From Flavobacteriales bacterium (GTDB taxonomy: Bacteria > Bacteroidota > Bacteroidia > Flavobacteriales_D > Sanyastnellaceae), in contig JAIXWP010000081.1 of NCBI GenBank assembly GCA_027491215.1, positions 1 to 41,877 on the forward strand: a stretch of DNA of 41,877 nt, read 5' to 3'. Below are positions 31,762-34,733 of this stretch, one piece after another; position 1 is the stretch's first letter, and each line of letters opens with the position of its first letter. A program made the position numbers and the translations under genes. Below the pieces are notes generated by a model. It was not told the origin of the DNA. It saw only the letters and a program-made list of their open reading frames with translations, and ran no database searches.

Positions 31762-31790
31762 CAAAGCTAATAGGATTTTTCAGAGACCAA
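31762..31790 (-). promoter_or_regulatory. Promoter of fabI, overlapping the end of the upstream gene
   Basis: The minus strand reads TTGG (31790-31787), a 17-bp spacer and TAGCTTTG (31769-31762). The -7 box matches TAnnTTTG exactly. The spacing is a little short and the -33 box imperfect. The TAG within the -7 box is also the stop codon of the upstream flavoprotein gene. Confidence 0.4.
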
Positions 31791-32996
31791 TGCATTTGAA
31801 ATAGACTTTGCGCACAGAATGGATGTCGTCCATGCAGCTTGAAAGTTAAAGCCTCCTGTGACAGCGTCTATATTCAACACTTCTCCGGCAAAATAAAGGC
31901 CTTTGAACTGTTTGGATTCCATCGTCTTAAATTCCACATCTGCTAAATCAACACCACCTGCTGTTACAAACTCATCCTTGAAGGTTGATTTCCCATCTAC
32001 TTTAAAGACCCCTTGAGATAGTTCAAGTGCAATTGAATCAATGGCCTTATTATTAATGTCAGCCCATTTTAGATCATGCGGGATATAAGGTGAAATGAGA
32101 GATTGCCAAAGCCTAGCAGGCAAATCTACAGGGCTGTACGAGTGAACCAATCGGCGCGGATCTGAAGATCTCAAATTTTTGAATCGATCGATCAAACTTT
32201 CTTTAGATTCATTCCCAAGCCAATTGACGACAATGTCAAACTTATATTTTTTGGCTTCTAATTCGCGCGCCGCCCAAGCTGATAATTTTAAAATACCAGG
32301 ACCACTTAGCCCCCAATGTGTAATGAGCATTGGGCCGTCCGATTCCATTTTGATTGAAGGAATCGAAACCTCGGCATATTTGGTGGACAAACCAGCAAGT
32401 CCCTCTATTCTTGAATCTTTGATATTGAAGGTAAATAGTGATGGGACTTGATGAATCATTTTTACTCCTAAGGCTTGCAGCATTTCCCAAATTTGCGGAC
32501 TGCTTCCAGCGGCCATTATTACATAATTACATGGTATAACATCGTTATTAGATGTTACCACATTCCATTCATTACCATTCGGTACAAGATTTTGGATTCC
32601 AGTTTGAAGTTCAATTTTTATATTCTTCTGATTTGCTTCCTTCAAAAAGCAGTCAATGATGGTTTGCGAACTATCTGTATTTGGAAAAACCCGCCCATCA
32701 TCTTCAATTTTTAGAGATACACCGCGCTTTTCAAACCAATCAAATGTATCACCACATTGAAATGAATGAAAAGGACCGACTAATTCTTTTTTTCCTCTGG
32801 GGTAAAATGTAGAAAGCTCTTTTGGATCAAAACAAGCATGCGTGACATTGCATCTTCCTCCACCACTAACTTTTACCTTAGAAAGTAATTTGTTTGACTT
32901 TTCTAATATTAGAATTTCGATGTCAGCTGGAAGATTGAGATTGATGGCAGTGAAAAAACCTGCAGCGCCACCTCCCACTATTACTACTCTTTTCAA
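31767..32996 (-). CDS. YhiN/HI0933-family FAD-dependent flavoprotein
   Basis: The 409-residue protein starts at TTG (32996). No ATG or GTG lies upstream before an in-frame TAG, and the dinucleotide-binding motif VVIVGGGAAGFFTAINL begins immediately, so TTG is required. The motifs SGGGRCNVTHACF (about 44-56) and the C-terminal TGGFNFQAAWTTSILCA with a second flavin contact (FAGEVLNIDAVTGG) are characteristic of the HI0933/YhiN (BaiN-like) family. These are cytoplasmic NAD(P)H/FAD oxidoreductases of poorly known substrate. It lies upstream of fabI on the same strand, only 25 nt away, yet fabI seems to have its own promoter. The TTG start suggests modest translation. Confidence 0.87.
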   Translation of the reverse strand: MKRVVIVGGGAAGFFTAINLNLPADIEILILEKSNKLLSKVKVSGGGRCNVTHACFDPKELSTFYPRGKKELVGPFHSFQCGDTFDWFEKRGVSLKIEDDGRVFPNTDSSQTIIDCFLKEANQKNIKIELQTGIQNLVPNGNEWNVVTSNNDVIPCNYVIMAAGSSPQIWEMLQALGVKMIHQVPSLFTFNIKDSRIEGLAGLSTKYAEVSIPSIKMESDGPMLITHWGLSGPGILKLSAWAARELEAKKYKFDIVVNWLGNESKESLIDRFKNLRSSDPRRLVHSYSPVDLPARLWQSLISPYIPHDLKWADINNKAIDSIALELSQGVFKVDGKSTFKDEFVTAGGVDLADVEFKTMESKQFKGLYFAGEVLNIDAVTGGFNFQAAWTTSILCAKSISNALVSEKSY

Positions 32997-33047
32997 AGGA
33001 TAAATTTTATGTGGCTAAAATAGCGGAAGAAAACGAAACGTATATAA

Positions 33048-33181
33048 CCAAAAAGTCCCACCTCGTTGGCGGGACTTAATGGCTTAAACTGAAAAACTAA
33101 AAACTATCGTAATTGTTTTGAGCCAGGACGGCTCAACTCAACTAACTCTTTATGTGTATTAAGGTACACTACCTAAATACA
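33048..33181 (-). ncRNA. Candidate structured small RNA (~130 nt)
   Basis: In the 324-bp gap between the flavoprotein and glcD genes, a minus-strand unit can be drawn. A -7 box TATATTTG (33192-33185) is followed at about 33181 by a hairpin with arms TGTATT+AGGTA and TACCT+AATACA (33155-33181, one A-A mismatch, 3-nt loop). A second hairpin TTGAGCC/GGCTCAA (33118-33136) follows, then an AT-rich linker and a terminator (33053-33077) with five T. There is no open frame of note. I do not recognise an Rfam family. The 3' UTR of glcD is an alternative. The rest of the gap (33193-33320) shows only a small perfect repeat, CATCTA...TAGATG, near the glcD stop. Confidence 0.45.
33050..33077 (-). terminator. 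Rho-independent terminator on the minus strand
   Basis: AAGTCCC (33053-33059) and GGGACTT (33071-33077) form the stem, extended inward by CC/GG after one mismatch. On the minus strand it is followed by five T (33054-33050). The plus strand has no T-run, so it ends minus-strand transcription: the candidate RNA or glcD read-through. Confidence 0.7.
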
Positions 33182-33184
33182 GTG

Positions 33185-33192
33185 CAAATATA
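33185..33192 (-). promoter_or_regulatory. -7 box of the candidate small RNA
   Basis: TATATTTG on the minus strand is an exact TAnnTTTG match, and its end lies 3-4 nt before the first hairpin of the candidate RNA. No TTTG -33 element is seen at 19-21 bp. Confidence 0.4.
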
Positions 33193-33320
33193 CTAGAATA
33201 TTCTGGAATAGAATTTCTCATAACATCATTTTAACGAATTTTCGATGTACGCTTGGAAAGCTATTCTAAATCAAAAGTTTCGATCAACGTTTTTTTTGAA
33301 CATCTAGTCAATTAGATGGT

Positions 33321-34733
33321 TTAAGGCAAAATTTTGGACGGATTCAATATATTCTTAGGGTCGAAAACATGCTTAATTGATCTCATTAATGTCAACTCAG
33401 TTTGGCTAAAAGATATAGGCATATATTCCTTTTGCACCCACCCTATTCCATGCTCGCCACTTAGAGTTCCACCTAATTGGACACACAATTCAAAAATCTC
33501 TTTGATAGCTAATGGCAATTGATGAGTCCAAATTTCATCACTTAAATCCCCTTTAATAATATTGATGTGTAAATTTCCATCACCAGCGTGGCCATAGCAA
33601 ACGGATTGAAATCCATATCGGCCGCCAATTTCCTTCACACCTTTTAATAAAGTGGGTAATTCAAATCTTGGGACAACTGTATCTTCTTCCTTATAAACAC
33701 TATTAGATTTTACAGCCTCTCCTACTCTCCTTCTCAATTTCCAAAGCTTATCCTTTTGGGTTTGATCATCTGCGAATAATATTTCACCTGCTTCAAACTC
33801 TTGGACCACTTCCATAATTATTTCACAATCCTTCATCATCATATCGAGATGATTTCCATCAATCTCTATAAGCAAATGTGCTTGTACCTCATCTCCTATA
33901 GGTAGCTGAATATCATCAACAAACTTGAGTGTCCAATCAATTGCATCTCTTTCCATGAACTCCAGAGCGCTAGGTGTAATGCCTGCTCTGAAAATAGCGC
34001 TCACTGCTGCACAAGCTCTTTCTGCAGAACTAAATGGAACCAGCATGAGAATGTCATGCTTTGGTTTCGGGATAAGTTTTAAAACCGCCTTAGTAATGAT
34101 ACCAAGCGTTCCTTCACTCCCTACCATTAACTGAGTAAGGTTGTATCCCGTTGAGTTCTTTAGCGTATTTGCTCCCGTTTGAATTATTTCTCCATTGGGA
34201 AGAACTACTTCTAAATTCAAAACAAAATCTTTCGTAACACCATATTTAACAGCATGAGGGCCACCAGCGTTCTCTGCCAAATTTCCGCCAATAAAACAAC
34301 TCCCTCTGCTACTAGGATCAGGAGGATAGTATAGTCCTTGCTTCTCAACCGTTTCTTGAAGAACTTGGGTGATCACGCCAGGTTGAACATGCACTTGTAA
34401 ATTCTTCTCATCAATTTCTAATATCTGATTAAAACGCTCCATTGATAATCCTACACCACCATGCACAGCTAAAGCGCCGCCACTCAAACCCGTCCTTGCA
34501 CCTAGCGGAGTAACGCAAATATTCATCTCAAAGCAATACTTCATCACCTCACTAATCTCTTTCGTCGTGGAAGGTTTTAAAACCACATCTGGTGGAAAAT
34601 TAAGATCCTCTGTTTCGTCATGACCATAATGTATGCGGTCTTCCTGAGAAACTAAAACGAATGGCTCGCCAATAATTTTTTGAAAAAAAAGTATATCCTT
34701 TTCTCCTATGGAATGGAAATGATGTGTACTCAT
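33321..34733 (-). CDS. glcD: FAD-linked oxidase, GlcD/D-lactate dehydrogenase type
   Basis: The 470-residue flavoenzyme has a VAO/PCMH-type FAD-binding N-terminal domain. Motifs include TPLGARTGLSGGALAVHGGV, PDPSSRGSCFIGGNLAENAGG and GTLGIITKAVLKLIPKPKHD. The C-terminal FAD-oxidase domain carries CYGHAGDGNLHINI and GTLSGEHGIGWVQKEYM. The last of these includes the conserved HG(I/V)G that contacts a 2-hydroxyacid. It oxidises an alpha-hydroxy acid such as glycolate or D-lactate. No iron-sulfur domain is fused, and glcE/glcF partners are not adjacent, so the exact substrate is open. It is divergent from dpp4 by 128 bp. No promoter was identified with confidence. The candidate small RNA lies downstream. 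Confidence 0.88.
   Translation of the reverse strand: MSTHHFHSIGEKDILFFQKIIGEPFVLVSQEDRIHYGHDETEDLNFPPDVVLKPSTTKEISEVMKYCFEMNICVTPLGARTGLSGGALAVHGGVGLSMERFNQILEIDEKNLQVHVQPGVITQVLQETVEKQGLYYPPDPSSRGSCFIGGNLAENAGGPHAVKYGVTKDFVLNLEVVLPNGEIIQTGANTLKNSTGYNLTQLMVGSEGTLGIITKAVLKLIPKPKHDILMLVPFSSAERACAAVSAIFRAGITPSALEFMERDAIDWTLKFVDDIQLPIGDEVQAHLLIEIDGNHLDMMMKDCEIIMEVVQEFEAGEILFADDQTQKDKLWKLRRRVGEAVKSNSVYKEEDTVVPRFELPTLLKGVKEIGGRYGFQSVCYGHAGDGNLHINIIKGDLSDEIWTHQLPLAIKEIFELCVQLGGTLSGEHGIGWVQKEYMPISFSQTELTLMRSIKHVFDPKNILNPSKILP

Follow-up and report, generated by a model that had tools for sequence, protein, structure and literature searches.

The gap between a glcD-like gene and an HI0933-like gene in the window (the whole stretch of 41,877 nucleotides analysed here) very probably encodes a separate RNA, and by sequence comparison this RNA belongs to a real, conserved sRNA family that is not catalogued in the Rfam copy we searched. 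The sRNA is predicted to be about 131-135 nt long, to run on the minus strand from around 33180 to 33050-33046, and to have its own sigma-A promoter and an intrinsic terminator. Taken as a whole, we consider it fairly probable that it is a stand-alone, Hfq-independent paralogous sRNA that base-pairs through a tract in front of the terminator. The promoter box, structure, paralogy and conservation rest on the comparison of sequences; transcription, pairing and a regulatory effect of the sRNA are what we infer.

The gap of 324 bp separates two genes of the minus strand, the glcD-like FAD oxidase gene (33321..34733, Pfam PF02913 and PF01565), which ends at 33321, and the HI0933-like gene (31767..32996, Pfam PF03486), which starts at 32996. 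The original prediction, that it holds a minus-strand box, a 27-nt hairpin, a 7-bp hairpin and a terminator in that order, was borne out by the sequence and the folds. The sigma-A -7 box TATATTTG lies at 33185..33192 and is followed by hairpin 1 (33155..33181, TGTATT-AGGTA/TACCT-AATACA), which is 27 nt long, is seen in single-sequence folds and opens at the predicted start. Hairpin 2 (33110..33144) folds into an outer helix TAGTTG/CAATTA and an inner stem, which is the perfect 7-bp hairpin TTGAGCC/GGCTCAA at 33136-33118. Next come the 27-nt tract ATAGTTTTTAGTTTTTCAGTTTAAGCC (33081..33107), our candidate pairing region, and the stem-loop AAGTCCCGCC-AACGA-GGTGGGACTT of the intrinsic terminator (33053..33077), with TTTTTGGTT directly 3' of it. 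The 3' end consists of a T-run and GGTT (33046..33054), all of these elements being on the minus strand. A terminator scan of 32900-33500 found one terminator (0.3 expected in shuffles). For the predicted RNA 33182-33050 the folding energy is -42.8 kcal/mol; shuffled sequences average -24.7 (z -5.35), and none of 200 folds as well. The open reading frames that overlap it encode 20-22 amino acids at most.

The check for conservation that came with the original prediction gave a clear result. With 331 bases of the gap as a blastn query against 60 relatives, we obtained matches with E < 1e-4 in 18 genomes, all from the same GTDB family (f1), and the part shared most widely was the tract together with the terminator. 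Exact copies of the 19-nt core of the tract, TAGTTTTTAGTTTTTCAGT, number 35, spread over 26 of the 114 f1 genomes and 11 of the 21 genera (reversed control 0). Nine of these 26 genomes have two exact copies, which are of different types and have different 5' parts. Sorted by eye, the copies fall into types A (like the window), A2 (the same plan with other hairpins), B (one small hairpin, at another locus), B2, C and D; in types A, A2, B and B2, which make up 33 copies, alignment and folds show the tract followed by a terminator of variable sequence.

We then looked at how far the family extends. A 21-nt pattern found 31 stretches in named genomes, which by their record titles are 22 Flavobacteriales, 7 Chryseobacterium gleum, 1 Crocinitomicaceae and 1 Atribacterota. 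The Atribacterota stretch (L089) lacks the neighbours and an evident terminator; we take it for a chance match and excluded it from the alignments. The records labelled Chryseobacterium gleum (L071, L080, L081, L085, L088, L090 and L091) carry the RNA and are placed in f1, so their labels look wrong. We also sampled 395 genomes of the class: 22 of them have a match with up to three mismatches, but the 24-nt form is exact only in G000 and G013, both of f1. Those with two or three mismatches outside f1 look like A/T-rich repeats or chance (two were read); for example, G410, G228 and G149, from other families, have several copies per genome of an A/T-rich sequence of the TAGTTTTTAGTTTTT type, probably unrelated repeats. 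No exact tract match was found in viral contigs. As far as these comparisons reach, the RNA family is seen only in one uncultivated family of Flavobacteriales.

A covariance model of tract plus terminator found matches in 33 of the 114 f1 genomes at E <= 0.01. Read by eye, several of the weaker matches belong to other sRNA-like units or are ordinary terminators, and five of them (L127, L132, L136, L137 and L141) look like terminators after coding sequence. A second sRNA-like unit occurs in the genus of the window (L124, at G000:C139:6845-6892, L125 and L126), with the tract GGATAAGTTTAGTTGTTAGTTAAA before its terminator. In L128, L129, L133, L134, L135, L139, L140 and L202 (minus strand) the terminator is preceded by TTGGTTAAGG or TTAGTTAAGG; several of these units have an exact TAnnTTTG box, and they can be clustered, with three in about 830 bp (L135) and two in about 2.1 kb (L128). 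A third sRNA-like unit is found in genus g9 (L131, in G029:C94, and L138, in G078:C133), with TTAGATAGTTAATTGTTTTCATT in L131, or a near copy of it, before the terminator.

Is the RNA transcribed from its own promoter? Taken alone, the TAnnTTTG box is weak evidence, with 38 such boxes in the window against 43 expected. A scan for sigma-70-type promoters found none on the minus strand at the site, and by eye the -33 element is poor. TAnnTTTG promoters are the common type in the Flavobacterium psychrophilum genome, and the box lies at -12 to -5 relative to the start (PMC9723704); because of this position we predict the start at about 33180. An exact box 115-25 nt upstream of the tract is present in 19 of the 33 copies; over 300 rounds of first-order resampling the average was 2.4 and the highest count 7. 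The 33 copies are related and thus not 33 independent observations. This recurrence among the copies makes the predicted promoter convincing. As the 5' part lengthens, the box or near-box (the inexact ones chosen by eye) moves away from the tract, from a distance of about 37 nt to one of about 112 nt. Nine copies of type A have an exact box, and in all nine the first base of hairpin 1 is no more than 2 nt from the start that the box predicts; over types A, A2, B and D, this holds for 12 of 21.

A rival reading of the locus takes the RNA for a stable product from the 3' UTR of the glcD transcript, with no independent transcription. Relatives of glcD, 63-79% identical to that of the window, are indeed the usual upstream neighbour: 20 of 22 type A and A2 copies have one on their own strand (in one case with a 131-aa open reading frame between), and the same terminator would also end the glcD transcript. 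Against this reading stand the recurrent box and, in type A, the opening of hairpin 1 at +1. Moreover, two type A copies do not follow glcD, types B, B2 and C are located elsewhere, and type D, whose surroundings are otherwise similar, is followed by an HI0933-like gene but has no glcD. We find a glcD 3'-UTR product improbable. A leader or riboswitch acting in cis on the downstream gene is more improbable still and is largely refuted by the comparison of neighbourhoods. The RNA ends in a terminator and lies upstream of an HI0933-like gene in the window and in five other compared copies (L018, L019, L066, L074 and L077), as a leader might, but this neighbour is not constant: in relatives the downstream gene is HI0933-like, FabI-like (or another protein in its place), and mostly not HI0933-like, and beside copies of other types (L027, L028, L063, L068 and L093) it is on the opposite strand. 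Since the downstream gene varies in this way, a leader is unlikely.

The separate sRNA is also consistent with the pattern of substitutions. In 14 sequences of type A, 97.0% of the cells of the consensus structure are paired, and 8 of its 26 pairs have changed on both sides (shuffled mean 3.7, with none of 500 shuffles reaching 8; at most 2 when the partners were slid). Of these eight, the extended terminator stem has six and the inner stem of hairpin 2 the other two. The outer and inner helices of hairpin 2 have 97.6% and 94.3% paired cells in these sequences, and the outer helix has no pair with changes on both sides. The A2 alignment has 7 of 27 pairs changed on both sides and more broken cells. 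Hairpin 1 appears in single-sequence folds and is absent from both consensus folds (A and A2), because it differs too much between copies. Covariation thus speaks for the terminator and the inner stem of hairpin 2 of the original prediction, while hairpin 1 stays outside the consensus. With the recurrent box, the conservation and this covariation, the proposal of a separate small RNA gains support.

The original prediction was silent on what we regard as the most telling feature of the RNA, the tract that separates hairpin 2 from the terminator and hardly varies. It is the most conserved stretch of the blastn matches, is U-rich and hardly changes across the 33-copy alignment. Many loci were fetched with the tract as the query, which inflates its invariance; the blastn matches are free of that bias. 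In the consensus fold it is unpaired, save for its last AAGCC, which can pair with the GGTT of the 3' end to give a longer terminator stem in the folds; the GGT is invariant across the 33 copies. In the minimum-energy fold of the window's own RNA, seven bases in the 5' third of the tract are paired as well.

The tract common to the paralogues would be the most likely pairing region, and the variable 5' hairpins probably protect and present the RNA. Candidate partners were found in two genera. Both g7 genomes have GGCTTAAAGTGAAAAACTA in an intergenic unit with its own box, closed by a terminator-like hairpin. The boxes, TAAATTTG and TACTTTTG, are of the TAnnTTTG form, and by eye the start they predict coincides with the first base of GGCTTAAAGTGAAAAACTA in G008, whereas in G027 it precedes that base by 2 nt; 21 bases of the complement (GGCTTAAAGTGAAAAACTATT) are identical in both genomes and the flanks are only partly alike. 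In g12, GGCTTAAACTGAAAAACAA (G013) or a variant of it ending in CAG (G032) lies in a 3' UTR, between an htrA-like gene, which in G013 encodes Trypsin_2 and PDZ domains, and its terminator. The g7 and g12 candidates are complementary to the core in 17-18 of 19 bases.

To put numbers on these sites, we calculated duplexes with the 27-nt tract and obtained -30.4 for G008, -28.8 for G013, -28.4 for G032, -24.3 for G027 and -30.2 for a site in g9 (G078:C24). Of 46,248 background tiles sampled in G000 and G013, none surpasses the g12 site with its -28.8, and the best non-partner reaches -21.7; extrapolated, chance would give about 0.01 duplexes per 8 million strand-bases at -30, 0.17 at -27 and about 2 at -24. 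Of the four sites in g7 and g12, three are thus well outside the background, while the G027 duplex alone is unremarkable and notable only as the counterpart of that in G008. Calculated with the 34-nt stretch of the respective genome, the duplexes come to -32.2 (G008), -27.1 (G027, the best of 300 shuffled targets reaching -27.0), -30.0 (G013) and -29.6 (G032). A weaker complement is common to five g9 genomes; in the two tested it gives -20.3 and -20.9, no better than the best shuffles.

Searching for the 19-base complement with up to two mismatches and tract copies excluded, we found 10 places in 9 of the 26 tract-bearing genomes (about 80 Mb), two pairs of them from genus mates, and none in 26 core-less genomes (about 63 Mb); the reversed control gave 2 and 3. 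Two of the places touch coding frames, the one in G017:C80 lying antisense within its frame and the one in G016:C79 overlapping the end of a frame. Looser searches showed no excess. With up to three mismatches, the 26 tract-bearing genomes have 36 non-tract places, and the reversed pattern has 47 there; the numbers in the same 26 are 94 against 116 for a wobble pattern with up to one mismatch, which was run on 52 genomes. Neither did the short complements TTAAACTGAAAAACTA (up to two mismatches) and CTGAAAAACTAAAAACTA (up to three) exceed the reversed pattern in 12 genomes. A general blocking of translation starts is not supported, as 50 and 51 of 60 shuffled tracts pair at least as well as the real one (210 genes of G000 and 265 of G013). 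Nor did we see a strong partner in the genus of the window, nothing there equalling those of g7 and g12: its start-region matches in G000:C144 and G002:C16 lie upstream of unrelated genes and are missing from the set of duplexes at -21.5 or better.

Potentially, the tract could instead be the site of an RNA-binding protein (e.g. an RRM-1 protein); the sRNAs would then be decoys or titrators bound by the protein, and the tract no seed. It is mostly unpaired, and it stays nearly the same despite the different 5' parts of the paralogues; the lack of excess pairing with translation starts and in the looser complement searches points the same way, and RbpB of Bacteroides prefers single-stranded regions in paralogous sRNAs (PMC11697453). 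A protein site, however, gives no reason to expect the candidate partners of g7 and g12, in which 17 or 18 of 19 bases are complementary, and we think this alternative unlikely. In the base-pairing model that we prefer, the sRNA would need no Hfq to bind complementary RNA, whose translation or stability it would alter, and in some genera it would be bound in turn by RNAs that carry the complement of the tract. It is possible, and we propose it tentatively, that this amounts to an Hfq-free circuit, in which a nearly invariant tract common to paralogous sRNAs with differing promoters and 5' parts is countered by dedicated anti-tract RNAs of separate origin in each genus (the stand-alone anti-sRNA of g7, the 3' UTR of the htrA-like protease in g12 and perhaps the weaker 3' site of g9).

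In enterobacteria, RNAs complementary to the pairing region of an sRNA are known as sponges or anti-sRNAs (SroC and the like). The putative g7 unit and g12 3' UTR would act alike; on the other hand, enterobacteria are another phylum, and here no Hfq was found. A literature search found no publication on sponge RNAs for sRNAs in Bacteroidota. Hfq has a match in one of the 114 genomes of the family, in none of the 50 better ones and not in G000, which led us to reject an Hfq-dependent sRNA. That sole match (L094, G130:C40:14715-14903) is in a genome that is 85% complete and is possibly contamination.

The RNA matches no family of the Rfam copy searched, in agreement with the original prediction, which did not recognise one. 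Rfam gave no match at gathering scores in the window or in 20 loci; around the site there are seven matches at E <= 10, all under the gathering scores, and a search for tRNA and tmRNA found none. A 6S RNA has the shape of a long hairpin with a central bubble; here, 6S has no Rfam match and the fold consists of separate hairpins, so that we rejected this candidate too.

In its plan, the family resembles FopS of Bacteroides, a genus of Bacteroidales and thus of another order than Flavobacteriales. FopS of Bacteroides thetaiotaomicron is a set of paralogous sRNAs with 14 copies in the genome and susC start regions as targets; these sRNAs are bound by RbpB and repress susC mRNAs (PMC11697453). Both have paralogues, a conserved single-stranded region before a Rho-independent terminator and sigma-A-type promoters of their own (predicted in our case), which is a likeness of plan. 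They differ in that there are one or two exact copies per genome here instead of 14, type A has two 5' hairpins, and the susC targets have no recognised counterpart here. With the Rfp sRNAs (PMC9723704), ours would share that they are structured, independently transcribed flavobacterial RNAs; Rfp18 of F. psychrophilum is predicted there to pair through its third stem-loop, whereas here it would be the unpaired tract.

With a candidate tract and candidate partner RNAs defined, the idea of base-pairing is directly testable by compensatory mutation. Regulation by sRNAs in Bacteroidota is known mainly from Bacteroides. This is also the tenor of PMC11697453. The RNA described here would add another family of paralogous sRNAs, this one in Flavobacteriales and apparently without Hfq.
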